Shown here: piece after piece, positions 11,822 to 62,043 of the stretch
Numbering within the stretch: position 1 is the first letter of the stretch
How the letters are laid out: each line of letters begins with the position of its first letter
Assembly (NCBI RefSeq): GCF_000003815.2
Contig: NC_049979.1
Location: forward strand, 20,722,759 to 20,786,758
DNA from: Branchiostoma floridae
Lineage: Eukaryota > Chordata > Leptocardii > Amphioxiformes > Branchiostomatidae
Direction: 5' to 3'
DNA: 64,000 bases
Notes under the pieces: model-generated
Told to the model about the DNA's origin: nothing
Seen by the model: only the letters and a program-made list of their open reading frames with translations
The model's database searches: none
Program-made: the position numbers and the translations under genes

Positions 11822-12786
11822 ACGTCTGATGCATCATAGTCCACATCCGCCAGGTGTCTCTTCGCGCAGGGTGAGACCTCGTCTTCCTCCCTCCGACGCT
11901 TCTGCCTGTTCAGACAGCCGTCCATGTAAATCAAGTCCACGGTCTCGTCGTCTCACACTGCTGGTCACCTCGGGTAGACCGCTTCACCACAGATCTTCTC
12001 CGGCCGAAGCTCACAGCTGGCCGTTTTTGGGACAAAGTGTCCGCAAAGGGCAGAAAGTGGTTTCTACCGGCAGGTTGGACAGCACACACGGTCATTCTGG
12101 TCAATCCTCTGCACCTGGCCGAACCGCTGGACTCTGATGTCGTCACATCGTCTCCGGAGTCGTCGGAGTTGCTCTGTAGCGCCGGAGAAGCGGACAGACC
12201 CAGCAGGAGCTCTCTCGCTACAGACGACCTTTCTCCTCCGGAGAACCCAGGTGTCTGCGTAGTGCTGGGTGGAAGCGGGGTGAAGTTGACGTGACCCGCC
12301 GGCTTGCTGGGACGGATGGACATCCGGGCGGTCTTCCTTCCCTCGTAATGCTGCCAGGCCAGCCCCCTCGCGACCCGATCGTTAAGTTTCAGCACGTATC
12401 TCAGCATGTACGGCTCCATCCTCTGTCACCTGTCTGACGTTAGATTGACGTGAATCACGGCGAAACGCGACAACAACTCAGTGGTTGAGATCAGCCGTCA
12501 ACTCTGAGAGGATCTGTAATAGAAAGACATTACTGTCCACCTGATATCATGTTATGTTGTTCACAACTTCAAACTGCCAACAGAAAGTTGTTCAACGTGA
12601 GATATTTGAGAAGATTCAAGAGGAAAAGTTAAAACAAACCTCTTTTTTTCAAGATGGCCGACTTCATTGTAGAAAAAGAACCACGGAGAACGCCGAACGT
12701 TCTATTTACCGTCACTTTATTACGCCATTCCATGGCAACAGTTACTACATGAGGAGCAGTGTTGTAGAACTGTTCTTGAACAGCCA
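11822..12786 (-). repeat. Inverted duplication, left arm
   Basis: This segment is the diverged reverse complement of 13520-14505. It includes a gene body (ATG at 12419), a shared 5' UTR with a candidate 3' splice site (TTTCTATTACAG), and a promoter-proximal block (AAGATGGCCGAC, then TTATTACGCCATTCCATGG). Divergence is several percent with small indels, so this is a real old duplication rather than an assembly mirror. Confidence 0.85.
11931..12419 (-). pseudogene. Frameshifted copy of an unrecognised intronless gene
   Basis: The frame starts with MEPYMLRYVLKLNDRVARG and closely matches the intact copy at 13885-14514 for about 150 residues, then ends after CETTRPWT. Compared with the intact copy, 10 bases are missing just after the codons for CETT. 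The lost frame is still open downstream (about 11822-11932) and would encode the same basic tail, with KRRREEDE and CAKRHLADVDYDA. The deletion is therefore probably recent. The product, if made, would lack the putative nuclear localisation signal. It could still be expressed as a short isoform; I call it a pseudogene because of the frameshift. Function is unknown. Confidence 0.7.
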
Positions 12787-13519: not shown

Positions 13520-14505
13520 CAAGAACAGTTCTACAACACTGCTCCTCATGTAGTAACTGTTGCTATGGAATGGCGTAATAAAGTGACGGTAAATAGAACA
13601 TTCGGCGTTCTCTTAGTTCTTTTTCTACACTGAAGTCGGCCATCTTGAAAAAAGAGGTTAGTTTCAACTTTTCCTCTTGAATCTTCTCAAATATCTCACG
13701 TTAAACAACTTTCTGTTGGCAGTTTGAAGTTGTGAACAACGTAACATGATATCAGGTGGACAGTAATGTCTTTCTATTACAGATCCTCTCAGAGTTGACG
13801 GCTGATCTCAACCACTGAGTTGCTGTCGCATTTCGCCGTGATTCACGTCAATCGAACGTCAGACAGGTGACAGAGTCAGAGAGGATGGAGCCGTACACGC
13901 TGAGATACGTGCTGAAACTGAACGATCGGGTCGCTAGGGGGCTGGCCTGGCAGCATTACGAGAGTAGGAAGACCGCCCGGATGTCCATCCGTCCCAGCAA
14001 GCCGGCGGGTAACGTCAACTTCACCCCGCTTCCACTCAGCACTACCCAGACACCTGGGTTCTCCGGAGGAGAAAGGTCGTCTGTAGCGAGAGAGCTCCTG
14101 ATGGGTCTATCCGCTTCTCCGGCGCTACAGAACAGCTCCGACGACTCCGGAGACGACGTGACGACGTCCGAGTCCAGCGGTTCGGCCAGGTGCAGAGGAT
14201 TGACCAGAATGACCGTCTGTGCTGTCCGACCTGCCAGTAGAAACCACTTACTGGTTATTCCGGACACTTCGAATTCATCCAACAAACGGCCAGCTGTGAG
14301 CTTCGGCCGGAGAAGAGCTGTGGTGAAGCGGTCTACCCGAGGTGAACAGCGGTGTGAGACGACAGGAGGGAACGAGACAGTAGACTTGATTTACACGGAC
14401 GGCTGTCTGAACAGGCAGAAGCGTCGGAGGGAGGAAGACGAGAGCGAGGTCACACCCTGCGCGAAGAGACACCTGGCGGATGTGGACTATGATGCAGACG
14501 ACGAG
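13520..14505 (+). repeat. Inverted duplication, right arm
   Basis: Mirror partner of 11822-12786. In order it holds the promoter-proximal block (13520-13660), a 5' leader with candidate acceptor TTTCTATTACAG near 13780, and the intact gene. Both arms keep an AAGATGGC-type YY1-like element and GAAnnTTC-type pairs near 13597-13612, which may be regulatory but are weak matches. Confidence 0.85.
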
Positions 14506-14514
14506 TCCAACTGA
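13885..14514 (+). CDS. Unrecognised intronless 209-residue protein, nuclear-type tail
   Basis: I chose the ATG at 13885 (MEPYTLRYVLKLNDR) because the inverted copy shares it; the frame stays open upstream to 13867 but that extension is not conserved. The protein has a short basic amphipathic N-terminal segment (to about residue 45), a long Ser/Thr-rich low-complexity middle with acidic SSDDSGDDVTTSESS, and a basic-acidic tail (RQKRRREEDE, CAKRH) that could be a nuclear localisation signal. There are no membrane segments or signal peptide. A short N-terminal helix, disordered body, NLS and single exon loosely resemble the immediate early response (IER2/IER5) layout, but sequence identity is not evident, so no name is given. 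A candidate 3' splice site near 13780 suggests a 5' UTR intron. Confidence 0.7.
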   Translation: MEPYTLRYVLKLNDRVARGLAWQHYESRKTARMSIRPSKPAGNVNFTPLPLSTTQTPGFSGGERSSVARELLMGLSASPALQNSSDDSGDDVTTSESSGSARCRGLTRMTVCAVRPASRNHLLVIPDTSNSSNKRPAVSFGRRRAVVKRSTRGEQRCETTGGNETVDLIYTDGCLNRQKRRREEDESEVTPCAKRHLADVDYDADDESN

Positions 14515-43100: not shown

Positions 43101-43689
43101 GCCGGTAGTCACTTAAGGTAGCAGAACACAGTTTTCCGCCTATAGAGTTTCTTATTGTTAAGGGCCAGAAGGTGACTGGCTTCGACGCGGAAAAACATGA
43201 AGTAGAGTGCACTTTAGGAATACCAAAAACGGATATGTTCGAGTTCAGAGTACATACAAGCCACAAAATATTGAAAAACGGCAAATACGTCGGCGTATCG
43301 CCTTCTCAAGCCCACTTTGAAACGTCGCTCTGCGGAGGTCAGCCGGCTCGCACCAGAAGAGTAGTTGCGTAATGGGGCGCATTTATACACGAAATAGAGA
43401 ACGTTTACAATCCAAATCATACAGTCAAAGACATTTTAAATGTTCAAAGACATTTGGGAATCCATGCGTTCTGAGATTCGTTTTATCTCGCGGATCGATG
43501 AAGTGGTCAATGTGGTGTTGTAGTGGGTAAGGCTCACAGTGAAGAAAGAGTTCAAATTTCGTGGTACGATGTGGAGTCCTCACAGCATACGTACACCTCC
43601 GGACGCCATCTTGTCATTCAACTCAACAAAGTATTCAGGTTTTTCACAGCCTTCATATTGTATAATTGTATCTTGCTTTGTCCTTTCAG

Positions 43690-46600
43690 CAAGGAATACC
43701 GAGGCCGAAAGTGATTCTTCAACATCCAAGACCTTCCAGTGTACCAGGGAATACGAAGGCAAATGAAGAGAAATCGTCGAATGACAAGAAAGGGAAACAG
43801 ACGGTTTCACAGCTGAGCAAGCAGTTCTGTGACGCCACGACATGTCACGGACTGAACCGTATCGGGTCGGCGCAGTCCACGGCGGCTCGCCTGATGTGGC
43901 TCGCGCTCGTGCTGACCGCTGCCGCCTTGACCATGTGGCAGGGGAGCAGACTGTTGACCAAATACATGTTATATCCCGTGCAGGTCAAGGTCAACATCGT
44001 CGTGAACAACAGGCTCGTGTTCCCCTCGGTAACCGTCTGCAATCAGAACAGACTCAGGAAGTCGAAGTTGAACGGATCACGTTTCGAGCCCCTCATAGAG
44101 ATCGACGACGAAACTATCGGATCGGTTGACTTCCTGGAGATGGACAGCCAGGACGGACCGCTAGATGGCCTAGATGCGACAAATAGATCCAGGAGATCGA
44201 CAGATTCAGACGGACCGGAGTCCGCGATGCAGATGCTGGAAAAACGACGTCAGATGCTGAAACGGAAAACCAGAGCTACTTCCCCCTGCCCCAAGGCTCC
44301 CGTGAGTGGGGTAGATATAGTTTGTGTGGACGTCAAGCACTCGATGGACAATGCCTCCGAGGGCTGTGCTCAAATAGGCATGCAGCTATGTTCATACCAT
44401 CAACTCCGAACGGCGCACGCTAGAGGCATCCGCGATCCGCTGCCGCTGGAGCAAGGCAACTCCTGGCGTTTCTTCAGTCGTCCCGGATGGGACGTCACTC
44501 TTCAGTCCGAATGTGGACCTCGCTATGAGAACGTCGTGGATGAATGTTACGATGGCATGTTCCCACACACTCCTCGTGCGGGGACTGAGGGATTCCTGTA
44601 CTGCTGTAACAAGGAGTTCATCGTGACCGACGAAACCTTCACCGATCATCAGCAAGCAAAACAGGCCTGCGATGATCAAGGGTTTCAATTGTGCTGGCCT
44701 CAACAGCTCAAGAAGATTTTTACGGATGGGTTTCGGGGTGAGACATGGGGCTTTGTCAGTGATCCGACGAGACAAGCACACCTCAGTCCGTGCGGCTGCC
44801 GACCACAAAAGATGTGCTACCAGTTCACGTACGGCTACGTACTGAAGACCAGACGAAACATGCCAGCATACTGTTGTCAGCAAACATACGCATTCCAAGA
44901 CGTGGACTCTTCTCTGCAAAACCGCGCTGCCGACACATGCTCATCAAAGAACTTTAAATTATGCCCCATCCAACGATTGGTAGACGTACACAAAGCAGGA
45001 ATCCGATTTGACAACTGGGGCTGGGTGAAGCACCCCGGTAGAATTGCTCTCCTTGGCGAACGGTGTGAAGAGAGCAACGATACGGAATGCTATCAGCAAC
45101 GTGTGGCTTACTTGGACGACCAACCTGAAAGCACTAATAAATCTCATTGCTGTTCACCAATGATTGCCATCTTTAATGACCGGTTTCAAGACGAAGATGA
45201 TGCATCAAACTCCTGTGATCGACAAGGCCTTCAGCTTTGCACTCTCTCTCAGCTGGTGACAGCTTATCGCAGAGATACCCCGATTGAAGACTTCGGTTGG
45301 GCAGCCGACACCAGAGACGGCACCTACCAAGTCATCGTCACCAAGTGCAGCTCAGGCCCGAACTGTTACAACCCGATACCTGTTACTCCTGGTGACAGAT
45401 TCCCAGCATATTGCTGCCAATATGTGGAGGCGAAGATCGCTATACCACCAAGAACACAGTGTACCAACATATTTAGGGGCTGTAGCGAGCCTCTAGGTAT
45501 GGAAGATGGTCGAATCTTGGATCAACAGATCACTGCTTCCTCCAGTATGGGTAGAAACGGCACGCTGCCATACCAAGGCCGCTTGAACGGGTGGGGTGCC
45601 TGGTGGGCCGATACCATTTCAGATAGCAATCTGGGCAGCAATGAGTGGTTCCAAGTTGATTTACTGAAGCCGATGTATGTGACGGGACTGATGACGCAAG
45701 GGGTGCGGAAGGGCTTCATCATAACCTACAAGCTTTTGTACAGCAACGATTCTGCTGGTCCGTGGATTGTGTACATGGACAAGAGCAGTAACCGGGATGA
45801 GTTGTTCAAAGGCGTAACCCGTCTGGGTGAAACGAGCCACCAGCATTTCGCCTACCCGATCTTGACGAGGTACGTCAGGTTACAGCCTCACTTCTTGTCC
45901 CACAAGTACGCCACCCTGAGGATGGAACTGGTCGGCTGCGACCCCGAGACGTGTGCCGATCCTAGGAGCACGGACGAGCGTGGGGTGGTGAACGTATCAT
46001 TGGACTGCCAGGGACGGGACTGCTACGTGGGCAACGGGGAGAACTATCGAGGGACGAAAGGAACGACGGAATCTGGAAGAGGCTGTCAGCAATGGGCGCG
46101 ACATGACCCACACCCACACTGTAACGTCACCAGTGACACCTATCCAGCAGCGTGTCTCGTAAACGACTATTGCCGCAACCCGGACGGCCGACCAGGCGGG
46201 CCGTGGTGCTTCACCAAGGACCCGGACGTTCCGTGGGAATCCTGCGGCGTCGGAAAATGCACACTGCAGGAAAACGAGGTCTTAGACAAAGCTGCGTGGA
46301 GAGGGTACATTGAAAAATCGAACACCTCCGACAACAGTGACCTGTCCGAAATCCTTCCTCCGGCCACTCGACAGGAGCTGCGGAAGCTTGGACATCAGAA
46401 GAACGACTTCATCCTGCAGTGTAGCTTCGACAAACAGCCATGCTCACCTGACGACTTTATCATGTCACAAGATGCAAAGTAAGATTCGTTTATTTTCCAT
46501 AAAATGACGTGTTATCTTACGGTTAATTGCTGTTGGATGTCGTCTGCTTGAGATAGGTTCTCTTTTCCAGTTTCTAATAGAGTCTATCATCTCGCCTGTT

Positions 46601-47541
46601 CTTTCTGTAGGTACGGCAACTGCTACACATTCAACAGCGGTACCAATGGAGTGGTGCGCACAACTACCAGGTCAGGAACTAGCTATGGTCTTAAACTTAC
46701 CCTAAACGCCGAGTCAGCAGAATATTTGGGTCTCTTCGGACAAAGGGTGGGCGCTAGGGTCACCCTCCATCCGGTCAACTCCACTGCCTTCCCGGACACG
46801 GAGGGCATCGACGCTCCTCCCGGAACTGCCTCGTCCATCTCGGTGAGACAGGTGGTCATCACTCGCACGCCTTGGCCGTACGGACAGATGGACTGTACCA
46901 ACAACAACGACGACTACATGTCGCTGTACAGCGGGAAGATCTACACCCTGCGTATGTGTGAGAACACCTGCTTACAGTGCGCCATCATCAACCGGTGCCA
47001 CTGCGCCACTGACATGATCGACCTCACACGAAAGAAGGCCATCAGAGAATGCTCCCCGTTGTTTGCCAACTCCACTGTCCCCGTATGCAACATCGCTAAA
47101 TCGCGAGTTCAAGCGTGCGTCAGGGGCTTGTGGAAGCGTTTCCAGCGAGGGGAACTCGAATGTAAGTGTGACCAGGCCTGCAAAGATGAAATATTCGAGC
47201 TCAGCCTTTCGTCCTCCTTGTGGCCGTCCGACCGGTTCGTTCCGTACATCTTGAGAGACCTGCACATGATCCAGGACATCCGGAGAAACAACCTTCCGCG
47301 GAGTATGCAGGAGGTGAGGGACAACCTGGTCCGGGTCGAGATTTCCTACAAGGAGCTGAACTACGAAAGCATCGCGGAAGAGTGGAACTACAAAGAAGAG
47401 AACCTCCTCGGAGACATGGGCGGTCTACTGGGCTTTTACATAGGCGTATCTATCATCACCATTTGTGAGTTCGTCGACTACGTCCTGGATCTGCTTGGAC
47501 TACTCTGCAGAAAAATCAAAAGAAGCATAAAGAGAAGGTGA
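43690..47541 (+). CDS. ENaC/degenerin-type channel with cysteine-repeat, F5/8C and kringle insert (paralogue 1)
   Basis: Predicted amiloride-sensitive-type sodium channel subunit at the plasma membrane. Exons 43690-46478 and 46611-47541 (junction phase 2) encode 1239 residues; an upstream first exon is needed, because the acceptor at 43689 is in phase and the first internal Met lies in TM1. In order: TTCHGLNRI (HG gating motif), TM1 (about 43880-43950), FPSVTVCNQN (palm), furin-type sites RSRR and RKTR 26 residues apart, four cysteine-rich repeats (44287-45417), an F5/8C domain bounded by cysteines (45481-45939), a kringle (46021-46260: YRGT, CQQW, YCRNPDG, PWC), then DFILQCSFDKQPCSPDDF, YGNCYTFNSG, the cysteine-rich palm/thumb, and TM2 with LLGDMGGLLGFYIGVS (GxS filter). 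The C-tail is short with no PPxY. Typical family members are 500-700 residues, so the insert doubles the length. Tandem paralogue 9 kb downstream. The ligand is unknown. Confidence 0.93.
44197..44274 (+). other. Tract between two furin-type sites, paralogue 1
   Basis: Codes for the 26 residues from after NRSRR to the end of KRKTR. Both sites fit R-x-x-R. The tract sits directly before the first cysteine repeat in the ectodomain. Vertebrate alpha-ENaC is activated by furin removing a tract of similar length; the parallel is inference. Confidence 0.6.
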
Positions 47542-47642
47542 TTGAACAACAACAACAACAACAACAACTAAACTTTAGAACTTTTGGCAATGACGGTAAC
47601 TGGTACTTTAACATTTTCGACAATTTATTTTTGAATGATCGA

Positions 47643-47946
47643 TAGGGTATCAGTAGAATGCATTCCTCACATTCCTAAATGGACAAAGCCCAAATTTCTC
47701 TTCCAATGTTCTGCTTTATAATTATTTATCTCCCACTTTGTCCAGTCCCCTTTTCCTCTGAGGATCAAACACTCATCCAGAGGGCGTTACACCTTCGTGT
47801 TGACACGAGGGTATCTTGAGCTAATATCCCCAGACTTTTTTTACATTCTTTGAACTAAGCTAGCCTTGTTAAAGATTTCATGGGTGAAAATAGGCCCAAA
47901 GACAATGTTGTTTGGCCTTTCAGGAATGCATTCTACTGACTCCCTA
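47643..47946. mobile_element. MITE with 24-bp inverted ends
   Basis: The ends pair as TAGGGTATCAGTAGAATGC and its reverse complement (AGGAATGCATTCTACTGA, then CTCCCTA). Part of its interior (GGGCGTTAC ... GTATCTTGAGC ... CCCCAGAC) reappears in inverted and diverged form at about 48110-48275. Confidence 0.7.
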
Positions 47947-49333
47947 TATACTAAATGAAATACGCAATGTACAGATACTAGTAACTCTCTCATGATGTAA
48001 GAAGTGCAGAAGATTATAGGCCCTTGAATTTAACAAGCTAAGAGAAGCTTTCCATATGATCATGACTCGTCATGATTTTTTCAGATGACGCTATTGTAAA
48101 AGATAGTTGTGGAGGAAAATCTGCTCGCAACTACTGTTTTCTAGGTTTGAGCTATTGTCACCCTTAAGATCGTTAAAATGGCAGATTCAAGAAATGTGAA
48201 GAAGTCTGGGGGTATTGCTCAAGATACTCTCCTGTCAAGAATAACGCCCTCCGGCTGGGTGTTTGGTCCTAAGTAGCTGTTGGAACGGCAACACTTTGAG
48301 ATGTGATCGGTAGAAGTCGCTTCTACACTGTACTGAGGTACCGATGCAGTTGTGAAGGGGTGTGGGCTTAATGTTATGAGTCTTTACATGTTGGACCACT
48401 TGAGCTTGATCTTATGGATGACAATTTCTACAAGAATATTCCTTGCAGTATTAAAACAAGCTGCTAAGGAGCTCAAAACTGCTTCTTTTCGACCCCAAAA
48501 GCTATGTATCTGCCGCCCAAAAGGCAAGTCCACAGCGCCCATATCCAGAGCGGGACGTATTAAAACTGGACGCCCAATGCAACCCACAGGGAAAGCTGCC
48601 AGGAGGCAAAAAACTTTAAATCTTCTCATTCCATATGAAGGCATATCATGAACAATACTTTGACAATACATATGCATCAAATGTACAATATATTTACTTG
48701 ACAATCGGGCAAATAAGAAAAGAAAATGAAACTATAGAATCTAAAGCATAGAATTGCCTTATATCGTTGGTCATTGTAAAAAGATGATGTTGTCCTTGCA
48801 AAGCAGCGCTAAATGATAATCTACGTCATCCTTAAGACAAAGACTGTGTGACCAAAGTATGTCGATCGTGATGTCATTAAGTATTAGCCAATCAGTGTGC
48901 GTGTTCGTACCTGTATCATGCATCGGACGTCAGGCATTGTATGTGTACTTTACGTTTGTTAGTTGGTTACTTTGTTTGTGGACAGGATGAGTCTATGGAA
49001 TACGAATTTTCAATAATTTGACATGAGTAAAAATGTCATTAGTGGAAACATCTGTTTTCCGGCCATATGATGAAGAATATGTTGAATTTGCCAGATAGTG
49101 AGCCTATCAATGAGGTGGTTTGATATCAGCGGTTTTGTAACACATGTGGGGATGACCACTGAATCATAACATAAAAGATAGGAAATATAACACACTAAAC
49201 AGTGTAGCGGGTCAGTTGTAATCGAGGCAGACTGAAGGAATAATTTCGTCCACAAACAAAGGAACTCCATGATGGTAAATTGTAAGAGATAAGTACCACT
49301 TTACGTGAAGTGCTTTACTTGATACGTGTTGAT

Positions 49334-49701
49334 TAGGAGTGGGTACCGGTACGGTGTACCGATGCAAAACCGGTTTTTCTTGTTGGCCCGGACCGGACAA
49401 ACGGGAACTGACAAAAATCATCAGTGGACCAAATGTCGGATCTAATAGAAAATGAACAGATCATGCCGGCACCTCGGTGGCTGGCGTTCATGTGTTTTGG
49501 GGCTTATTGGTCAAAGAAAATAGCAAGAGTGAAGTAGAGGAGAGCTAATAGTCATTTTCAGAGGCAGATTCCTTTGTAGTGAAATGGACCAATGTTTTGA
49601 GTCATTCACAAACAATTAGATTATAGGTCCGGACCTGGACCAGATCCTCTGGACCTGAAACGAACCTGTATCTGAATTATCTGTACCGGTACCGACCCCT
49701 A
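49334..49701. mobile_element. hAT-like MITE
   Basis: Inverted ends follow TAGGRGTSGGTACCGGTAC over 19 bp. The interior has repeated GGTCCGGACC/GGACCGG phrases. Possible degraded 8-bp duplication: GTGTTGAT on the left and GTGTCTGC on the right. Confidence 0.65.
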
Positions 49702-50343
49702 GTGTCTGCTGTATACCCGTATTAGCTGTATATGTATAACGTTATCTCTGAACGTTATGTATTTCGTATAATGTTGTATCACATGCCCTGCAATCATAAC
49801 GTTTAGTGGTAGAGGTTGCGCATTAATTCTGAGCACTTTTTCCCCATTGATGTAATAGCTATTATGCCCCTGTCACATAGTATAAACATCGATAAGCTGG
49901 CGAGTATACAAGCTCTAAATAACATAAAATAGCAGTATTACGACCGATGTTCTCTCGATAATTGCTACATTTTTAGGGATCGACTGATATCACAGGTCTC
50001 TAATCCTCGTCCACTGTGATGGGGTATATTTTCGGGTGAAAAACACTGTCGAGTCGTTTTAAATTCGGTGACTTTGGGGCGAAAAACAAACACCGAAGGT
50101 CGTGAACTATGTGACAGGGGTTCTATACTTGTCAATATAGGGTGTTTATAATTACTTGACTCATGTAAACCAACCAACATAGCAGAGGCGAGAAAAAACG
50201 GCGAGGGTATTTTGTGGAAAATGTTTGAAACGAATATTTTTCTAACCGGTCAACATGCATGTATTTGTCATTGGGCAGCATTAGGGAGTATTTTAACCAA
50301 AAAAATAAGGTCACTAACCATTCCGAGTTAGCATTTGTAGCGA

Positions 50344-50533
50344 CATGAATTATGGGTAATAGGTCAAAGGTGAAGACACCTGACTTGTGAAGACCATGAC
50401 AGTTCTATTGATACTACATCCATATTCTGGTCTTGACATCATCAGCAGTCTTGACTTTTGTCTCGACTTGCCGTGAATATCCAGACCTGTTTTGTTTATG
50501 TCTTCACCTTTGATATATTACCCACAATTCATG
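50344..50533. mobile_element. Inverted-repeat element
   Basis: The left end CATGAATTATGGGTAATAGG and the right end (TATATTACCCACAATTCATG) are near reverse complements, and GGTGAAGAC/GTCTTCACC extends the arms to about 33 bp. 190 bp, non-coding. Confidence 0.65.
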
Positions 50534-51179
50534 CTGGTCATCATAGCGCCGACCATCTCCAAATGTAGACAGCTAGGCAAAATAGACATGAATATGCAAA
50601 TACATTTGTATTGGCGGACATGCAGCCATTTTCTCATTGGTCAAACCGGTAATTGCCATGCTATCATTGGATGAACTGTTATTTGTTATTGTACTGTATG
50701 CATCGATAATAAAGTTAGTTTTAGATGAGAGAAAGCGCGGTGTGCATCATTTAAGTTTGATACCAACCTTACCGAAATTATGCTGACAGTAGGGGCATAA
50801 AACCAAATTATACTATGGATAACCTGTCAGCTATTAGAACTTGAAATCGTCATGTCCCAAACTTAGCTAAAAAGTATTGAGTCTTTTGTTTTGTAGGCAA
50901 GGGTACGTACTGTCTGACATGATATTTGACTACGTCTACGAGGCCTATGTTTTTGGCATGTGTTTTTGTTTGGGTTGGGTTGTCATATGCCATGTCATAT
51001 GACATACGTCTGAATCTTGACTAAATTTTGGATATGTCTCTGCCAGAGTCTGACCTATCGTTAACCGGTGAGTTGGGGGAGGGGGGCGGTGTCTGTATCT
51101 ATGATGTCATAGAATAACATGTCTGCTATGAACATTGAGGGAAAAAACTACACTACGTTATCATACATGAATTGTGCAT

Positions 51180-51740
51180 TAAATCCATCTTTTGTATCGC
51201 TATGCGATAGAATTGCAGTTGAAATTTATACCCAATTGCAAAAGGCATAACCCCTAAGACTATACAGACATGTACGAAAAGGAAACAAAATACATGAAAT
51301 CGTCGCGGGGAAATACAAATCTTTACAAATATCAACCACAAAGAAGATTATTCGCCCTCCCACAGTGAGAACATCCATAGCTTACTGTCTTTGCTCCCTA
51401 ATCCGGCCGCCTTTGGAGCTTCCTCCTACCAAATCGCCCCAATCCGCTCGATGATTGCCATATAAAAGAAATAGAAGTAAGACATAACGTTATTCTATGC
51501 AATTTTTGATTTCCCTATACGACAGAATTAATTGTGTTTGATATTTCTCCAAGAAGCACATGACCCCTGAACTATATAAACATTGTGTAAATCTTTACAA
51601 ATACAAATCATAAAAAATATAACTCGCTCTCGAACAGCGGGATTATCCTTAGCCGGTTGTCTTTCCTCGCTAATCCGACCGTCTTTGCAGCTAATCCGTA
51701 CCAAATCTCCCCACATCCACCCGATGATCCTTTCTGCCCT
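51180..51740 (+). repeat. Diverged direct duplication
   Basis: Two copies of about 270 bp, roughly 51180-51470 and 51500-51740. Shared blocks include GACAGAATT/GATAGAATT, CATRACCCCTRA, AAATCTTTACAAATA, CTAATCCG and CCAAATC. Function unknown. Confidence 0.6.
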
Positions 51741-52282
51741 TCTGAACGACTGTTACACACAAGAAACCTTCGTGCAGTAGTACATTGAAAGACCCCTTAG
51801 TCTCCTTTGCTGAGGATAACGTGACCAACGTTGACCTTTCTGCCCAAAAGCTGCCCAAATCCATATATTAGATCGAATCCGCTTTTCAAATTACATCTGC
51901 TTGACGTAAGGTGCTTTAAAGCTTCTTCTGTTTGTGTTAATTGTGTTACAGAAAGATTTACCATATTAAATGGGTGCGATGAAGACAAATGTTGCATCAT
52001 CAGTATAAATATATACCATATTTCTAAGAACTCCATTGAAAATTGAAATCTGAAGGAATATCTTACGTGCCGGATGTCTATTACTCGTGCATCATCAAAA
52101 TCTTCTTATCTCGCCAGGGATTGGTCGTAAGAAGAAGATAAAACTTAATGACGATAAAGAAAATCCGATAGCTTAATTTTCTTCACACCTGATCCAGAAT
52201 TGTCGTTTTCGCTGGACAGAGAGGACTGGCCATCGCAAAGCTCTTCGACGGGAACAGGTTTTCTGTTCTCGGATGTCCGAAA

Positions 52283-55200
52283 ATGTTTTCCAGCGTTCAC
52301 CCGATCAAACTGGGCCTTGATGCGAAGGTAAGAGTACTGTATTGATTTGTATTTACTTCATTGTGTAGTACGCAACTTTAGGCGCTGTGACACTGTAACT
52401 TGTACACGTATTTGCCGTTCAATTAGCTACCTTCTCTTACCATAGCTAGCAACACTGCTTAAGGTAATGATGACTATGAATTGATTGAAACAAAGACTGT
52501 CAGCCGCAAACCGTGAGGGGCATTTGGCGCAGGAAACATCTTAAAATATATTTGCCACATACAACAAGATATAGTTTCAAGCTTTAACTCGGGTGTTATT
52601 TGCTTTACATCTGCACAGAAAGTAGTGGGGCTAAACTCTTTAATGGCAAATGCGGTTCTGTTTTTTCGCCATACAGGGTGACAAGAAAGGGCCCAGGAAG
52701 ATATTCGTCATCCCAGTCGCCACTAACAAAAATGAGAAGGAGGAGGAAAGGCCACGGAACATGACGATTCCGCAGTTGTCCAAGAAGTTTTGCAGCGCCA
52801 CCACATGCCACGGTCTCAACCGCATCGCTCAGGCGCAGTCCCCGGTCGCCCGCTTCATCTGGCTGAGCCTTGTCCTCACCTCGCTGACGTTGTTTTTACT
52901 CCAGGCTAATTTGCTCATCACCAAGTACATGGACTATCCAGTACAGATCAACGTCAACATTGTCGTCAATCACAGACTCCCGTTCCCTTCGGTGACGATC
53001 TGCAACCAGAACAGAATGAAGAAATCGGAACTGAACGGAACGCGCTTCGCACCGCTAGTGGACATCGACGAAGAAACCGTGAGCACAGTGGCTTTTCTGG
53101 GGAATGATGGAGGTGCAGTGAGCAGTCAGGGGGAAGGGTCAAGTGAGCAAACGGTACGGATGAAGAGAGGAATACCAGCAGCAGAAGATCGCCATAACCT
53201 TGGCAAAGACAGGCCCATTGTTGCTCGAAAACGCCGAGCGTCACCAGGGTGCCCCAGCGACCCCGATAACCCGTACGGAATCGTTTGCCTGGACGTCAAG
53301 ACCTCAATGGCAAATGCCTCCAACAGATGCGCTACCATCGGCATGCAGCTTTGCACGTACGACCAACTACGAAAGGCGCATGCCATGGGAGTCCGAGACC
53401 CGCTGACCAGCGACGACAACGACGGTTGGCGATTCTTCAGCCGAAATGACTGGGACGTGACGTTACAGGACGACTGCGGGCCGCGTTACGAGAAGGTCGT
53501 GGACGAGTGTTATGAAGGAATGTTTCCCCATACGCCTCGGCCAGCTACCCATGGGTTCCTGTACTGTTGCACCAGAGAAATGCTTCGAACCACCGATAAA
53601 TACAACACACACGAAGAAGCTGAACAAGCCTGTGAAAGCCAGCAATTTCAGCTGTGCACCCCGAAGCAGATGGCGAACGCTTATGACAATGGCATCCGAG
53701 ACGAGAAGTGGGGGTTCATCAGCCAAGCAGACAAACAGGCCCACCTCGCACCGTGCGGGTGTCGACCAGATGACGAATGTTACCACCTAGCGTTCTCCTA
53801 CATTCAGCGTCAAAGCCCTTCCCTCCCGGCGTACTGCTGCAAACGAACATACCAGATGCGAAACGACTACTTCAGCCACGAAGGAGCAGAGAACGGCTGT
53901 TCTTCAATAGGATATGATATCTGCAGCCTAAAGCAGCTTGCCGTAGTCCACGGCTTAGGCTCACGTTCTGACGCTTGGGGATGGGTTCAAGAAGAGAACA
54001 CGATCTCCCGGCTTCATGGGACTTGTGTGGAAGCTAACGGATTCCGCTGCTACGAGAATGCTCTGCAGTACCAGACTGCTGCACCAGGAGGGATCTACCG
54101 GCTACACTGCTGCACCCCCACCTTTGTACAAACCACTCAGACATTCTCCAGCTATGGCAACGCGATGGATACTTGTAACAAGGATGGTAAGCAGATCTGT
54201 ACATTGACCCAGCTGGCGGAAGAATATAAGAACGGAGTTCGGACAAACACCTGGGGCTGGGCTGAAGACCAGATGCAGGCCGTCGTGGGGGAGTGCGACG
54301 CTAACCTTGACTGCGCCAGTAACGTGACCAATGCGATCCCTTACGTAACAGCGGACGGGACGGCCAAGCAAGCCTACTGTTGCGAGTATGTCCGAGTATG
54401 GCCGGAACTCCCTCCTCGGACCCAATGCACCAACCGATTCAAAGGGTGCAACAATCCTCTTGGGATGGAGAATGGTGTTATCAAGGACTACCAAATCACG
54501 GCTTCATCTACGGACGGGCGGAACGGGACTCAGGCCCACTACGGCCGCTTGAACGGGCCGGCTGCGTGGTGGTCTAACGGTGTCCCACAAGGGGTGCTTG
54601 GGATCGACGAGTGGTTCCAAGTAGACTTACTAAAGCCGATGTACGTCACAGGTGTCATCACCCAAGGACTGGCAAGAGCCTTCATTTTAACATTCAAGAT
54701 TCGCTACAGTAATGACACGGGCGGGCCTTGGTTCGTGTACACTGACCCGTACGGAGGACGTGATGAGTTGTTCAAGGGCGTCTCCGCAGAGGACCAAACA
54801 GGTCATCAACACTTTGCCTTCCCGATTCTTGCCAGGTACATCAGGTTCATGCCTTGGTTCATGTCAGAGTTTATCTCGCTGAGGATGGAACTTGTCGGCT
54901 GTGATCCCGAGACCTGCTCCGACCCGAAGAGCACGGACGGACGCGGCGTCGTCAACGTAGCCCTAGACTGTCAGGAGAGAGAGTGCTACCTCGGCAAAGG
55001 AGAGAACTACCGCGGCACGAAGAAAACGACTGAATCGGGACGAAGCTGCCAGAACTGGGATCGACACTACCCGCACCAACACTGCAACATCACCAGTGAC
55101 ACCGACCCGGACGCTTGCCTGGCGAAAAACTACTGTCGCAACCCGGACGGTAGACCAGGCGGGCCGTGGTGTTACACAGTCGACCCCGTCATCACCTGGG

Positions 55201-57309
55201 AGTATTGCGGGGTCGAGAAGTGCACGGAGAGAGACGACATCGTGCTGGACAAGACGGCGTGGAGAGAATACATCGAGCGGTCCAACACCTCCGATTTCAA
55301 CGACCTGTCTGATCATCTTCCCCGGGCCACGCGGGAGGAGCTGCGTCAACTCGGACATCAGAAGAACGACTTCATCCTGCAGTGTAGCTTCGACAAACAG
55401 ACCTGCTCACCTGACGACTTTGTGTCTACCCAGACTGAGAAGTAGGTAGTACTATAACTTATCCATAAAGAGAGAAGAAGCCGAAGCTGTAAATGGTAGA
55501 CTTCGATACTACATAGAAGAACTTTATTGCACGACAACTGTAGAGGATACAGTGTTTGGCAACTTGAACATACAATACATACAGAACAGTTTAACTACAT
55601 GAGTTACTAGTATCTAAAAATCTAAGAGAATTATCTATTTTACACATGGTATATTATATTTACAATCAGGCTAGCATTATGTGCTGGTTTATGATAGTAT
55701 AATATTGTCTCGTTTTTTAAATGAGTTATATATAAATTGACCGACATAGGCAGATATATCAGCAGGACATGATAGTAACATATTAAACATTTCTGTCTTG
55801 GTAGGTGGTAACATTGTATCAGATTTTCATTTTATAGACTGTAACATTTTTTGTCTCTCTCTATCATAAGTTGGACAATCCATTATAAAGTGAGATCATA
55901 TGTATATTCTTGTGAGTTGTCTTTGCTACCGTGTGTAGAAAAAAAGTGTAGAACAAAATTTCATCCAATCAAAATCAAGGTATTGAATTTGGAAAAAAAC
56001 AAATCAGCAAGTATTTTTCCCTGGCACGATGGCATGATTACAGGTTGCAAACAATCAGCTTTCATTGAATAGATAGAAATTGTAATCGGATAACAGAGTT
56101 TAATTTGGACCAAATGCATTATGTGGATCATCCAGAAAATATAAGACTCCCTAAACTATACTTGGTGCGTCACTTGGTATTCCATCCACACTGTCAGTGA
56201 GACGTATGTCGCTTGTAATTGCAGTGTTTTTGTGTTGCTCTGCCGTGATGCGGATCAAGGGAAAGTTAGATGCGAAATGTTCCTCTCCTGTTAGTTTAAA
56301 AATCTGTAACTTATCCCATCTATCTCACAGGTATGGCAACTGCTTCACGTTCAACTCCGGACGTGATGACAAAGAATGGGTGACCACCAGGTCCGGCTCA
56401 AGCTACGGTCTGAAGCTCACCCTCAACCTGGAGACGGCAGAGTACCTCGGTCTGTTCGGCAACAAAGCCGGCGCCAGGGTCAGCATCCACCCCGTCAACT
56501 CCACACCGTTCCCGGAAACCGACGGCGTCGACGTCCCTCCCGGCATGGCCACGTCCATCTCGGTCAGATCCCTGGTCATCACGAGGACGCCCTTCCCTTA
56601 CGGCGGTGGGGACTGCACGGCCAACGTGGACGAGGCCGTGTCGCTGTACGAGGGAAACAAGTACTCCTTCCGCCTGTGCGAGAACAGTTGCTTTCAGTGC
56701 CAGGTCATGCAGAACTGCAGCTGCACCACGGACTTGATCGATTTGAGCAAGGTCGAGGCAATCCAAAAGTGCAACGACCAGTTCCAGGGTGCCCCCGTCC
56801 CCATCTGCGACCTCGCCAATCCCCGGGTCCAGGCCTGCGTCAAGACCCAGTGGAAGCTCTTCGAAAGCGGTGAGCTGAACTGCTCCTGCAACCAAGCCTG
56901 TCGCGACGAGGCCTACGAGCTAAGCATCTCCTCCGCCATCTGGCCGTCTCGCCCGTTCGAACCGTACATCCTGAGAGATCTACATATGATCCAGCAGTTG
57001 AAGAGGCGAAATCTTCCCCGGTCCTCTGAAGAGGTGCGCGACAACTTAGTACGAGTCGAGGTGTACTACGAGGAACTCAACTACCAGAGCATCAGCGAAG
57101 AGTGGAACTACAGGGAGGAAGATTTCCTCAGTGATCTCGGCGGTCTTCTCGGACTGTATATCGGTATTTCCTTCATAACCCTTTGCGAGATCCTTGACTT
57201 TGTTCTCGATATGATTAAACTACTGATGAAAAAATGCTTCGTACTGAGAATGAAACAGGAATCGCGCAAGTTCCAACAGCCTGCTGACGACGGTAAAGCA
57301 AATGAATGA
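52283..57309 (+). CDS. ENaC/degenerin-type channel with cysteine-repeat, F5/8C and kringle insert (paralogue 2)
   Basis: Same architecture as the upstream paralogue, and complete. Exons 52283-52327 (MFSSVHPIKLGLDAK, phase-0 donor AAG|GTAAGA), 52677-55441 and 56331-57309 encode 1262 residues. TM1 is at about 74-96; FPSVTICNQN at about 118; furin-type sites RMKR (to 179) and ARKRR (to 202), 23 residues apart; cysteine repeats about 207-586; F5/8C 606-757; kringle 785-864 with YRGT, CQNW, YCRNPDG and PWCY; then DFILQCSFDKQTCSPDDF and, across the intron, YGNCFTFNSG. TM2 carries LGGLLGLYIGIS (GxS filter). The first exon is an inference from phase and a good donor. The 55441 donor is GTAGGT and is supported by matching the paralogue junction. 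A poly(A) signal lies at 58189-58194. Several N-glycosylation sequons occur in the ectodomain. Confidence 0.93.
53169..53237 (+). other. Tract between two furin-type sites, paralogue 2
   Basis: Codes for 23 residues between RMKR and the end of RKRR, at the same place as in paralogue 1. Both sites fit the strong R-x-K/R-R form. The residues between differ between paralogues while the bounding basic sites persist. Confidence 0.65.
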
Positions 57310-59174
57310 GGTAATGTTAAATACAGTTTCAAATTGCATTCAACGACGAACATGTACTCATAGTGGCTGCGTCAACTGTGTATTCGTAGTCTTCAAGAAC
57401 ATGTCGTCGAACCAATATGTACTATAAAACTTAGAATTATAAAACAAAAGGTGTCGTCACAGACTTCATTACAGAGGTGTAGTTTGGATATCAAATGAAT
57501 GAAAGGTAATTTTTATGTAACATAAGATGAACACTACATATATATTATATTCGTTGCCAGTCATCATTTCATATGTTAATTCTATAAGAATCCGACATCG
57601 TGTCATTGTTGTCATCTATCATTGTTCAGATATAACGCAAAGAAGGTTAATGTTGATGTAACATCAAGCTAAACATAGCCAGAGTGAACGTAGTCCCATG
57701 TTTATATACATGTGTTACATACATGTTCTGATGTATACTCAAGGAGAATCTAACATCGTGTTCTTGTATTATTGTTCAGGCTAGATAACCAAACAATTAA
57801 CGCTGCAGTGACAATGCAAAGATCAGTTAACGTTGATGTAACAGTAAGTTAAACATGTGATACATGTGACTTACAGACATGTCGTAATATTACAAATATA
57901 TATATACTGTTGGTGTCATTTTGTCAAATGAAAGTGTCATAACAAGTGCTAACTTCACATGTAATGCATGAGTTATCTGCTATGGGAGTGATTTCGACAA
58001 GCAAAACGTTTCGTTGTTTTATCAGTTTATGTCAAGACTATAACGTTAATATTGATAATTTATCGGATAAAATTTGACGCGATGAAGAAAAATATTTTTG
58101 TGAACTATATATCATCAGCATTATCATATAGTATGATAAGTATGTGAAATGATAGCTATGTACTATTTCCTAAATATCATAGTAAATGAATAAAGAATGT
58201 AAAGATAGGATATAAGCGTTGTTTTCTCAATCATTAAAAACCATACTATTATCAAATAGAGATCAGCTCAGCCTATACAAATGCTATCTTTTAAACGTGT
58301 ATTTGCTCCATCTGTGTATTGCCTCAGCCGTTTGTTTTGAAAAAAGAGGTTGTACTTTTTCTTTGATTTTCAATTTTGAAGAAAGTAATTATCTATACCA
58401 ATTTTAGACTAGATTACGTATTACGTGAAATGCATTGGCTACGCTTTATGGTAAGTCGTCCCATCCTCACTATGAATTACGTAAAATGAAATAGCTTCCC
58501 TATGAGTAGCAAGGAATTAAAAAGACCCGCAGACCTTCTTTATACCACCACGGTCGCTATATCATGCACGTACGACCATGTTCTGAGGTACCCTGATAAA
58601 GTAGCCATGGCGCAAAGTAAACAAAGTGACCGTTATGGGTGACCTAAAGTTACCCCAACCTCATGTGCCTGTCTCAGGACTAATGTTTGCTAACGGAACG
58701 TGTCAAAGTTCATCCAGGTACTGCAACAAACACACGAAGACAGGACATGTAAGCTTTTCCTCGCTTCTTTTGATGTTTTTTTCAAGCTGCACGGGGTTCA
58801 TAATATTGCTTGGTTATATAGTGTGTCCACTGTATAAATTATACAGACTTAAGTTATACAACATCTAGACTATGGCAAGCGAAATATACTCTGCAAGGAA
58901 CCATGGGGGGGGGTCTCTCTCTCTCTCTCTCTCTCTCCTAGCCGTCGTATAAACATTTGGTCGCTGCCAAGAAGAAAATATTCAGGCAGAAGAATTTAAC
59001 ATTCAGGACAAGTCTGACATAAAGCATAACAGCTAAGCAGTAAGGCAACGCCTTTTCTGCTATCAAACATGGTGAACTACCTCAGGGGACAAGTGTGAAA
59101 AGGTGACAAAGCCATGAAGAACAAAGTCAACTATTTAGTTAGTTCCTTATTTGTGTTCGGTTACAGTCGAAGCC
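57310..59174. other. Intergenic, channel 3' flank to LRR-Ig gene
   Basis: Probable 3' UTR to the AATAAA at 58189-58194. Within it, a diverged direct repeat (about 57590-57680 and 57745-57860; shared AATC.AACATCGTGT and GTTAAYGTTGATGTAACA). A CT microsatellite lies at about 58914-58936. The stretch 58620-58760 is duplicated upstream of the next gene at about 62885-62990, so it may hold the shared promoter or 5' UTR. Confidence 0.5.
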
Positions 59175-62043
59175 ATGAGGGCGGTCTGTTTTCTTCTGGC
59201 GATTTGTGCCGTGAGTGTGTTGCCCTGTTCGTCTGCCTGTCCGAAGTACTGCAATTGTAGCGACTTCGGCAACGAGTACACGGTGTATTGTCGCGGAGAA
59301 AACATCACTGCTATCCCACGGGACATTCCAAAGAACACGTCACGATTGGATGTCTGTAAGTACGTGTTATTATCATCTTTAGAAATCTTCTATGTGCCGT
59401 GGTTTATTATGGGCCGAAACCCCGAAAGTGATCCTACCTTTGTTTTCAATGGCATATTAAAAAAAAAAAAAAAACTATTCTATATAGTCAAAACGCCATT
59501 GGCATTGTTTGGATGGACTGATTGACTGATTAAACCTTTGCTTATTCATGAGAAGCTCAAATCGGCCCGCAGGCCACTTATCATTGAGGTCATGAGGATA
59601 GGCGTCAAAATACATTGAGGTCATGAGGAAAGGCATAAGAATACAAGGAATACATGCATTACATCATCGCATCAAATGTACAAACACATACCGTTACACA
59701 TTTCACATCTTTTTGAAGAATACTACTGTTTTGAAGAATATTACTGTGTCGAAGGTTCAACGTATGCTCATATGAACATAAATCCTTCTCATTTCTGCAG
59801 GTTTTACCCCAATCACCATGCTACGGAAAGGCGACTTCGTTGACATGCCCAAACTCAAACAGTTGAACGTTTGGTGGAACCTCAACCTGACCATGGTCGA
59901 ACTGGGAACCTTCGACAATCTACCAACCATCACGTCACTCGGACTGTTCAACAACTCCTTCACCAAGCTACCGACCGGGCTGTTCGACAGCTTAAAGAAC
60001 CTGAAGACTTTTGACGCTCACAACAGTAAGCTGGAGACGATCCAACACGGTCTATTCACCGACCATCCTACCCTACAAGAGATCAGATTGCCCTTGAACA
60101 ACATTACGGGGCTGGAAGATGCCGCTTTTGGTGGCCTTCCTCACCTGACCTCCTTGTATCTCAGTTCCAACAGCCTAACGTCTCTTAACCCGTCCGTCTT
60201 TGAGGGTTCGCCTAAATTGAAATCTTTGGATGTTGACGATAACGCCATTACCGCTATTAGTAAAGATACCTTTGCTGGCACCAACTTTGAGTTGTTGTAT
60301 CTCAATAGAAATGCCATCAATACCGTAGATGTCGACTCCTTTTCCAATCTCAAAAGCCTTCAGTATGTTTCCCTGGATCAAAACAACATCAAAGATCTAC
60401 AGGACGTCTTTAAAGACCTTCCCCAACTTCAGTCTGTTTCCCTGTTTGATAACAAGCTTACCAGCATCGAGGGTGTCTTCCAAAATCTCCCCAAGCTTGG
60501 CACTCTTTCGTTAAATGGTAATCAAATCACGAAGATCAGCAGCACCACATTCGACAGTGTTCCTGCCATGACGTCATTGAGCCTCAGTAACAACGCCATC
60601 GCTGAGGTGGAAAGCGGGGCTTTTAGAAACCTTGACAGCCTTGATTCACTTTACATTGACAACAACCAGATTCCAGAAATCTCCTTGGCAGGCTTGCATT
60701 CTCTTACGACTCTTACCATGAACGTCAACAACCTGCAGAGATTTCCTACCGACTTGGAAGATGCCAACCAACTCACGTATCTGACGCTGACCAGCAATCC
60801 AATCAAGGAACCGCTGGACGAGCAATTGTCAGTTTTGCACAGGTACGTTTCTCCATGTTTCAAACTTCCATGATACGTGTGGTCTCATCTATGTATTGTT
60901 ATATACTATTGGGATTTTTAATCATAATTTATTTGAATTACATTTTCATCCAGGCTCTCCAGTCTGTACCTGTCTGGCATTACAAGTCTAAAGTTGGCGG
61001 GGACACTGAATCCGAAGGCGCTATGTGGCTTGGATGCCCTTGAAGCTGTGTGGATTAAAGGCAACGAGCTAGTTTCAATCCCACCCACAACCTTCGAGTG
61101 CACACCGTCTATTTCCGGAATATGGCTTTCGAACAATAACCTGACAGAACTGAGTCCCCGCTTGTTCCATGGTCTGACGGAGTTGAATTGGCTGGATCTG
61201 ACAGACAACCAACTGAGCCACCTGGACCCTGACACGTTTGTCGGTCTTGATAAGCTGAGGTCTCTTTCTCTGATTGGAAACAACTTCACCAACATGGCAC
61301 ATGTAGCTCCGGCATTAGCACACCTCCCAATTCTACTGTACCAGACACTGGACAATAACCCATTTGTCTACCTTGGTCGCGACTCCTTCCCAATGCCTAT
61401 GAAGCATGTTAACTCGTTTTCTGTATCCAAAACACACATTCGTGTCATAGAAGAGGGAACTTTTTCTGCAGATACATTCCCCAATCTGACTCGGTTGGAA
61501 CTTGAGCAGGATGATTCTTTGCACTTCCTGCCAGGCAATATGTTGGACGGCCTTGACAACCTCACGTCCATGCTTGCGTACGGCGATCCTTTCCATTGTG
61601 ACTGCCAGCTCAAGGCCTTCGTCACCTGGCTACGCGAACAAGTCAACCCTCCGTACGTGAGCGCGACTTGTGCCAGCCCGCCGAGTCTAAAGGGCAAAGA
61701 CCTGACGGACGTTCCCCTGGCCAGTCTGACGTGTGACTGCCAACAGGTGGAAGTTCCTTCAATCGATACGAGTGGCAGTGATAACTTCACCCGTGAGGGT
61801 CAGACCGCCATGCTGAACTGTAAGGTCTCAGGCTGTCCTGAAGCCGAGTTTTTCTGGACCACCCCAACCGGAGCCATGTTGGCTGTGGAGTCGGGGTTCC
61901 CTAGGATGGAGGTACTGGACAGCGGTACCCTGGTGGTGACAGACGCGAGGGAAGAGGATACAGGGGTGTACACATGTACCGCTGTCAACTACCGCGGGAA
62001 GGCCAGCAAGGAAGTGTCTCTGCATGTAGGCAACAAACAATAG
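59175..62043 (+). CDS. Secreted LRR-Ig protein
   Basis: Exons 59175-59355, 59801-60842 and 60954-62043 (phases 1 and 2, GT-AG) give 770 residues. A signal peptide (MRAVCFLLAICAVSVLPCSS, cut before ACPKYC) is followed by a cysteine-rich LRRNT cap (CPKYCNC), roughly 22 leucine-rich repeats of 23-24 residues (LxxLxLxxNxI pattern), an LRRCT cap (DPFHCDCQLKAFVTWL), and one Ig domain (NCKVSGCPEAEFFW ... EEDTGVYTC). It ends at VGNKQ with no membrane span or GPI-like tail, so it is likely secreted. LRR-Ig proteins serve in adhesion, neural guidance and innate recognition; which applies here cannot be told. The start is the ATG opening the signal peptide. Poly(A) signal at 62399-62404. A tandem paralogue starts 4.2 kb downstream. 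Confidence 0.9.

Follow-up and report, generated by a model that had tools for sequence, protein, structure and literature searches.

Tandem DEG/ENaC-type channel genes of Branchiostoma floridae with a cassette of link, F5/8C and kringle modules in the finger

Two tandem DEG/ENaC-type genes were identified on the + strand of a 64,000-nucleotide stretch of Branchiostoma floridae DNA (G000:C1:20722759-20786758, hereafter the window), gene 1 at 43690-47541 and gene 2 at 52677-57309, from the open reading frame (ORF) listing and Pfam. In both genes an HG motif, the first transmembrane segment (TM1) and palm strand 1 are followed by an insert of ~770 residues and then by an ENaC/ASIC C-terminal half with the second transmembrane segment (TM2). 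The insert is composed of four link modules, one F5/8C domain and one kringle. Judged from sequence, this fusion of channel and cassette is very nearly certain, and it is well supported that a known channel family here has a new architecture variant, with a cassette of matrix-type modules in the finger.

The channel start and the cassette share one frame in each gene, as a first-pass annotation of the stretch had claimed: open frames 43666-46482 (gene 1) and 52644-55445 (gene 2) bear the long exons and hold the ASC N-terminal part, Xlink, F5/8C and kringle. The long-exon splice acceptors were read at 43690 and 52677, and 57309 is the stop of gene 2; the bounds 43690..57309 given earlier thus run from the acceptor of the gene 1 long exon to the end of gene 2. 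The intron between long and second exon is GT-AG, in phase 2 and at an identical codon in both genes (junction residues DAK/YGNC and TEK/YGNC), and leads into the ENaC C-terminal half with its GxS TM2, so that the in-phase splice also stands. Because the stretch from acceptor to TM1 in the gene 1 long exon lacks a Met, an upstream first exon must exist for this gene.

The domain search proposed in the first-pass annotation placed ASC, F5_F8_type_C and Kringle above the Pfam cut-offs in both genes. ASC (cut-off 23.6 bits) scored 78.0 bits in the long exon of gene 1 (ASC 1-90) and 79.8 bits in that of gene 2 (ASC 1-87), and 189.6 bits (174-455) and 205.1 bits (166-455) in the respective second exons. 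F5_F8_type_C scored 58.4 and 58.9 bits (cut-off 28.2), Kringle 81.7 and 92.0 bits (cut-off 34.3), and Xlink 47.6 bits over three stretches in gene 1 and 50.5 bits over four in gene 2 (cut-off 27). Chance or composition was rejected as the source of these matches, as ASC, F5/8C, Xlink and kringle in the long exons all exceed curated cut-offs. F5/8C, kringle and ASC also do so in the paralogues described below, where Xlink stays under its cut-off except in L040. Pfam and the repeat profile gave the same modules in the same order in both window genes, in agreement with the earlier reading. The features are as follows (A1 is the profile of 17 repeats described below).

43690-46478, + strand: gene 1 long exon, N-terminal part to start of C-terminal finger, with HG, TM1, palm strand 1, cleavage tract, four link modules, F5/8C and kringle (ORF, Pfam, acceptor, junction)
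43825-44091, + strand: gene 1 ASC N-terminal part, TM1 and palm strand 1 (Pfam ASC 1-90, frame residues 54-142)
44185-44274, + strand: gene 1 stretch between furin-like sites RSRR and RKTR, predicted cleavage (motif scan)
44299-44607, + strand: gene 1 link module 1 (repeat profile residues 212-314, alignment A1)
44602-44877, + strand: gene 1 link module 2 (repeat profile, A1)
44878-45153, + strand: gene 1 link module 3 (repeat profile, A1)
45148-45417, + strand: gene 1 link module 4 (repeat profile, A1)
45526-45930, + strand: gene 1 F5/8C (discoidin) domain (Pfam, residues 621-755)
46021-46260, + strand: gene 1 kringle (Pfam, residues 786-865)
46611-47541, + strand: gene 1 second exon, channel C-terminal half, TM2 with GVS (Pfam ASC 174-455, junction)
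52677-55441, + strand: gene 2 long exon, modules and order as in gene 1 (ORF, Pfam, acceptor, junction)
52788-53045, + strand: gene 2 ASC N-terminal part (Pfam ASC 1-87, frame residues 49-134)
53157-53237, + strand: gene 2 stretch between furin-like sites RMKR and RKRR, predicted cleavage (motif scan)
53262-53570, + strand: gene 2 link module 1 (repeat profile, A1)
53565-53840, + strand: gene 2 link module 2, structure predicted (repeat profile, A1, model)
53835-54113, + strand: gene 2 link module 3 (repeat profile, A1)
54108-54383, + strand: gene 2 link module 4 (repeat profile, A1)
54492-54890, + strand: gene 2 F5/8C domain (Pfam, residues 617-749)
54984-55223, + strand: gene 2 kringle (Pfam, residues 781-860)
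56331-57309, + strand: gene 2 second exon, channel C-terminal half, TM2 with GIS (Pfam ASC 166-455, junction)

Two other parts of the window were read. Just downstream of gene 2, at 59139-62043 (+), lies a leucine-rich-repeat gene with an Ig-like end, as read by eye. Similar open frames (MEPY.LRYVLKLNDRVARGLAWQHYE) occur at 11931-12425 (-) and 13819-14514 (+), in opposite orientation and ~1.4 kb apart.

The four repeats of each gene had been described simply as cysteine repeats. Their number held, and the label gives way to a more specific one, since the Xlink profile, PDB matches and a predicted fold all identify link modules. A repeat profile seeded with 10 repeats (three from gene 1, four from gene 2, three from L040) detected 36 repeats in nine of the 11 frames searched. 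When A1 was compared to the PDB, all 16 matches at E up to 10 were link-module proteins, with aggrecan at 6.4e-10 and TSG-6, LYVE-1 and CD44 at 0.02-0.6. Taken singly, 15 of the 17 repeats match Xlink at E up to 1, the best at 6.9e-7. Six cysteines are invariant across the 19 chosen repeats of a further alignment (A2), which drops one L040 repeat of A1 that has no closing CC. The predicted structure of gene 2 repeat 2 (predicted local distance difference test, pLDDT, 87.6; predicted template modelling score 0.79) has as its best PDB match the TSG-6 link module (template modelling score 0.67, E 3e-4), followed by LYVE-1 and CD44 and then by aggrecan and C-type lectins. By profile and predicted fold, the repeats are divergent link modules. 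They resemble TSG-6, CD44, LYVE-1 and aggrecan in both respects but differ from them in their cysteine set, and none of these proteins is a channel.

Structural flanks place the insert in the finger, where the first-pass annotation had put it. The match of the gene 2 N-terminal part to ASIC1 (2qts) extends to chain residue 78, and that of the C-terminal half of the paralogue L011 starts at residue 136. Similarly, the gene 2 N-terminal match to the FMRFamide-gated channel (FaNaC) 7yvb stops at residue 145, and the helix after the kringle (N-D-W-x-x-F) aligns to 7yvb from residue 158 in a profile of the C-terminal half (A4; ten rows, including four single exons from the window genes). At this point 7yvb has about a dozen residues (145 to 158) where the window genes have the cassette, and ~770 residues here take the place of 57 finger residues in ASIC1. 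In human ENaC, finger helices 1 and 2 flank the GRIP domain (PMC6197857, excerpt). By these alignments the cassette is in the finger stretch where ENaC has the GRIP domain, with link, F5/8C and kringle modules in its place.

A different insert was seen in an ASC gene frame on another contig, L018:2303-5950 (G000:C2:34713302-34716949, +), which runs from TM1 and palm strand 1 to a polybasic REERRKRR. This leads into ~1,080 residues with 27% Thr and 19% Ser, which form a mucin-like insert at the corresponding place in the finger. Together with the cassette, this would mean that the finger tolerates much foreign structure at the GRIP site.

The cassette is not confined to the window. Searches of the genome (513.4 Mb, 431 contigs) with the gene 2 cassette and with ASC revealed it at 11 loci on three contigs, and the same module order was seen at loci on all three.

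C1: window genes 1 and 2
C16:11.75 Mb: one locus, L040/L041
C16:12.25-12.30 Mb: five loci, L011, L012, L013, L014 and L015/L016
C6:22.02-22.08 Mb: three loci, L020, L021 and L009/L010

In five of the six paralogue frames scanned, F5/8C, kringle and ASC 126/129-453 lie in one uninterrupted frame. This rules out an artefact of splice joining and upholds the earlier statement that the fusion is not an annotation join. Such single-frame paralogues matter because gene-prediction errors can distort domain architectures (PMC3927609, excerpt). The sixth frame, L040, ends within the kringle, and the remainder of the kringle lies downstream with the channel half in six coding stretches. TM1 exons were located upstream in 10 of the 11 loci; for L040 only a palm-strand exon was found. 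L013 and L016 contain gaps of N. In L011, L012 and L020 the layout is link, F5/8C and a kringle-like stretch, then three link modules, F5/8C and kringle, and the two halves of L040 are collinear copies (455 vs 411 residues, 29% identity, E 4.5e-64).

Individual paralogues show further peculiarities. At L021:2995-6858 (-) on C6, the exon preceding the cassette is continuous with it, and the first of the link modules has been lost. The channel half of L040/L041 is divided as described, and cluster genes such as L011, L012, L014, L020 and L021 have no intron across about 4 kb, which points to marked intron loss within the cassette-channel family. The third C6 paralogue, L009:2768-6747 (-), is split between overlapping frames of 798 and 530 aa, and this frame break may reflect a pseudogene or an assembly error.

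Among the candidates scored, a separate donor gene for the cassette was considered and rejected. The gene 2 cassette gave 67 matches in the genome, 23 in channel loci and 44 elsewhere, and 43 of these 44 begin at query residue 546 or later, within the kringle and its edges. The remaining one begins at 514, reaches the end of F5/8C and has two stops. Matches well beyond the kringle thus occur at channel loci only, among the 66 of 677 first-look candidates that were scored, a sample from which link-only or F5/8C-only relatives may be missing. Long ASC-search frames at C7 and C2 (900, 787 and 750 aa) were examined for further fusions. A filter for frames of at least 250 aa containing under 50 X left none in L043-L045, and every L043 frame of at least 150 aa includes long runs of N.

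No description of a DEG/ENaC channel with a kringle, or with this architecture, was found among the open-licence papers listed, as judged by title and opening of the abstract; database records may exist. These papers agree with the earlier statement that known family members carry no discoidin or kringle modules; among animal genomes, the search covered this one. Branchiostoma DEG/ENaC sequences are included in PMC9822975, PMC9949801 and PMC6827283, the available excerpts of which do not contain the word kringle, as well as in PMC9234716 and PMC10507113 (excerpts).

The channel frame itself retains the hallmarks of the family. TCHG, the HG motif, precedes TM1 in both genes, and the G/S-x-S of TM2 reads GVS in gene 1 and GIS in gene 2. 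Most likely, the window genes encode DEG/ENaC-family cation channel subunits, with a trimeric channel a prediction. The C-terminal half shares the family fold with ENaC, where its best PDB score is to the beta subunit (E 8.9e-56), with the FaNaCs (E 1.6e-53), to which the helix after the kringle also aligns, and with ASIC1 (E about 1.6e-50 with the C-terminal-half profile). For the N-terminal part of gene 2, FaNaC1 8on7 gives the best match (E 9.3e-12). Opposite the acidic stretch TDETSF of ASIC1, which we take to belong to the acid sensor, the paralogue L011 has a six-residue gap, and the window genes align to L011 there ungapped. Since this stretch is missing, an ASIC-type proton gate appears unlikely. 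His73 and Lys211 are named for ASIC in PMC10507113 (excerpt), and in our alignment the ASIC1 lysine presumed to be K211 is opposite a lysine in L011 and an arginine in the window genes. Unlike ENaC, for which a PY motif (PPxY) is named (PMC8791634, excerpt), neither window gene has PPxY at its C-terminus.

The ratio of nonsynonymous to synonymous substitution rates (omega) was calculated by the Nei-Gojobori method (NG86) for five gene pairs. Between genes 1 and 2, with synonymous divergence (dS) of 1.1-2.0, omega was 0.17 for TM1, 0.15 for F5/8C, 0.08 for the kringle and 0.13 for the finger. For L011/L020 the values were 0.29 and 0.16 (link), 0.17 and 0.25 (F5/8C), 0.05 (kringle) and 0.05 (channel half), and for L011/L012 they were 0.30 and 0.37 (link), 0.39 and 0.20 (F5/8C) and 0.04 (channel half). 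L020/L021, with few changes, reached 0.47 in one F5/8C domain, with 0.15 for the channel half; L011/L014 yielded no values. The measurable modules are under purifying selection, and the values indicate that the kringle goes with the slowly evolving pore half, whereas the link and F5/8C modules are freer. A tree of 10 F5/8C rows, collected with a pattern that caught only part of the domains, has long branches and is given no weight.

Ahead of link module 1, both genes carry two furin-like sites, RSRR and RKTR in gene 1 and RMKR and RKRR in gene 2, with predicted cuts spaced by 26 and 23 residues, respectively. With two candidate polybasic sites ahead of the insert, the window genes would resemble alpha-ENaC; in gene 1 the motifs may be due to chance. 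Excerpts of PMC8791634 describe double cleavage of ENaC at polybasic GRIP sites, in alpha and gamma, that frees inhibitory tracts, and report that ENaC cleavage-site pairs co-evolved with terrestrial life. If cut, the pair in the window genes would be an instance separate from that of ENaC. Shuffles of each segment reached the observed count of strong motifs (R-x-K/R-R) at rates of 8.2% for gene 1 (one strong motif), 0.2% for gene 2 (two), 12.5% for the C16:11.75 Mb gene (one) and 11.4% for L012 (one). Strong motifs being confined to these four of the 11 genes, the pair was rejected as a family-wide rule.

We propose, with confidence evenly divided over the mechanism as a whole, that each protein is a channel subunit with a built-in matrix- or glycan-capture head that gates the pore. 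Subunits would assemble as family-type trimers, and the link and F5/8C modules would form an outer head capturing a matrix component or a cell-surface glycan or glycoprotein. The kringle would join this head to the finger, putatively as a hinge. Occupancy or tension of the captured ligand would then move the finger so that the pore opens or closes, a force-from-filament scheme with a built-in tether, and cleavage at the two furin-like sites may release the head during transit, as in alpha-ENaC. Direct gating by a lipid, glycan or matrix ligand, as inferred in the first-pass annotation, is likewise a proposal, and a glycan or matrix ligand is the more natural guess because link modules are present. 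The first F5/8C loop, presumably the membrane spike, bears an N-glycan sequon (NGT) in each window gene, whereas hydrophobic spikes are typical of lipid-binding C2 domains. The sequon speaks weakly against a lipid ligand, and a lipid-binding discoidin domain is the less likely reading. More tentatively, the head may be a hyaluronan or glycosaminoglycan receptor, with polysaccharide occupancy or tension directly gating the pore, a version that we think possible and rather improbable. According to a review (PMC10939387, excerpt), hyaluronan is present in animals from amphioxus up to humans, so that a ligand for the link modules would be available. Excerpts of PMC7958617 describe a mechanosensitive complex of ENaC with the matrix in which N-glycans act as tethers, and report that hyaluronidase largely abolishes the shear response of an engineered ENaC. 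Shear-sensing ENaC and the touch channels of C. elegans share the family and the idea of an extracellular tether with the present genes (PMC7958617, excerpt), but the tethers proposed there are N-glycans or separate components, whereas here the modules lie within the subunit.

Several observations weigh against this capture-head proposal. Single repeats are weak, the first scoring E 0.017 and 15.8 bits, below the Xlink cut-off. Canonical link modules have a set of four cysteines, and alignment to aggrecan did not recover that set in the repeats: a residue other than Cys faces the aggrecan Cys of FHQC, and Cys is added in QLC and in the closing CC. With the cysteine pattern so changed, hyaluronan binding cannot be assumed. 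Plasminogen-type lysine binding in kringles depends on a D-x-D pair, and the kringle lacks the second acid, reading PDGR in both genes vs PDAD in plasminogen kringle 4 (gene 1 aligned, gene 2 read), with Arg instead, so that lysine binding of this type is less likely. The link modules and cleavage tract give no omega between genes 1 and 2 because dS is saturated, and a model of link 4, F5/8C, kringle and channel half was too poor to use (pLDDT 43.4). The furin-like pair clearly exceeds the shuffles only in gene 2, and seven of the 11 genes have no strong motif. The shear response of wild-type delta ENaC is unchanged by hyaluronidase (PMC7958617, excerpt), and tethers are thus not universal in the family.

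Other readings of the same architecture are each less probable. A chemosensory or immune channel is the least unlikely of them; soluble or microbial glycans or peptides recognised by its head would gate the pore in the manner of FMRFamide in FaNaC, and tandem copies would differ in ligand. The 11 loci in tandem clusters, the faster evolution of link and F5/8C modules than of kringle and pore half, the predicted fold in the link/C-type-lectin group and the alignment of the C-terminal half and finger helix to FaNaC would all suit it, but omega is below 0.5 wherever measured and shows no sign of positive selection at the level of whole modules. Somewhat more doubtful is a protease-activated leak channel, in which the cassette would be an oversized GRIP-like cap, two cuts would release a tract and open the channel, and the modules would serve only for bulk or localisation. 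Both window genes do have two furin-like sites at the GRIP position, and the mechanism is known for ENaC alpha and gamma (PMC8791634). Against it stand the scarcity of strong motifs across the family, a gene 1 pair that could be chance, and selection that preserves F5/8C and kringle beyond the needs of a spacer.

The ectodomain is dominated by adhesive modules, as would be expected of an adhesion protein or silent subunit in which a non-conducting channel frame acts as an anchor or as a modifier of other subunits. This we consider improbable, given a channel-half omega of 0.04-0.05 in two cluster pairs and the retention of HG and GxS. Least credible of all is an assembly or gene-model artefact fusing unrelated genes. 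The gene model lacks a first exon, and N gaps or a frame break affect three other loci, but the uninterrupted single frames of the paralogues, the phase-2 intron conserved in both window genes and the same module order on three contigs make it very improbable.

Elsewhere, link, discoidin and kringle modules grip sugars and matrix, and their arrangement here suggests a channel sensing what it is attached to. If the hyaluronan or glycosaminoglycan receptor version is true, one polypeptide would do work that is elsewhere split between a channel and separate tethers. Matrix action on DEG/ENaC channels is poorly understood because tethers are hard to identify (PMC7958617, excerpt). With matrix-type modules inside the finger at 11 loci of one genome, such action would become testable in a single protein whose parts are trimmed or swapped.

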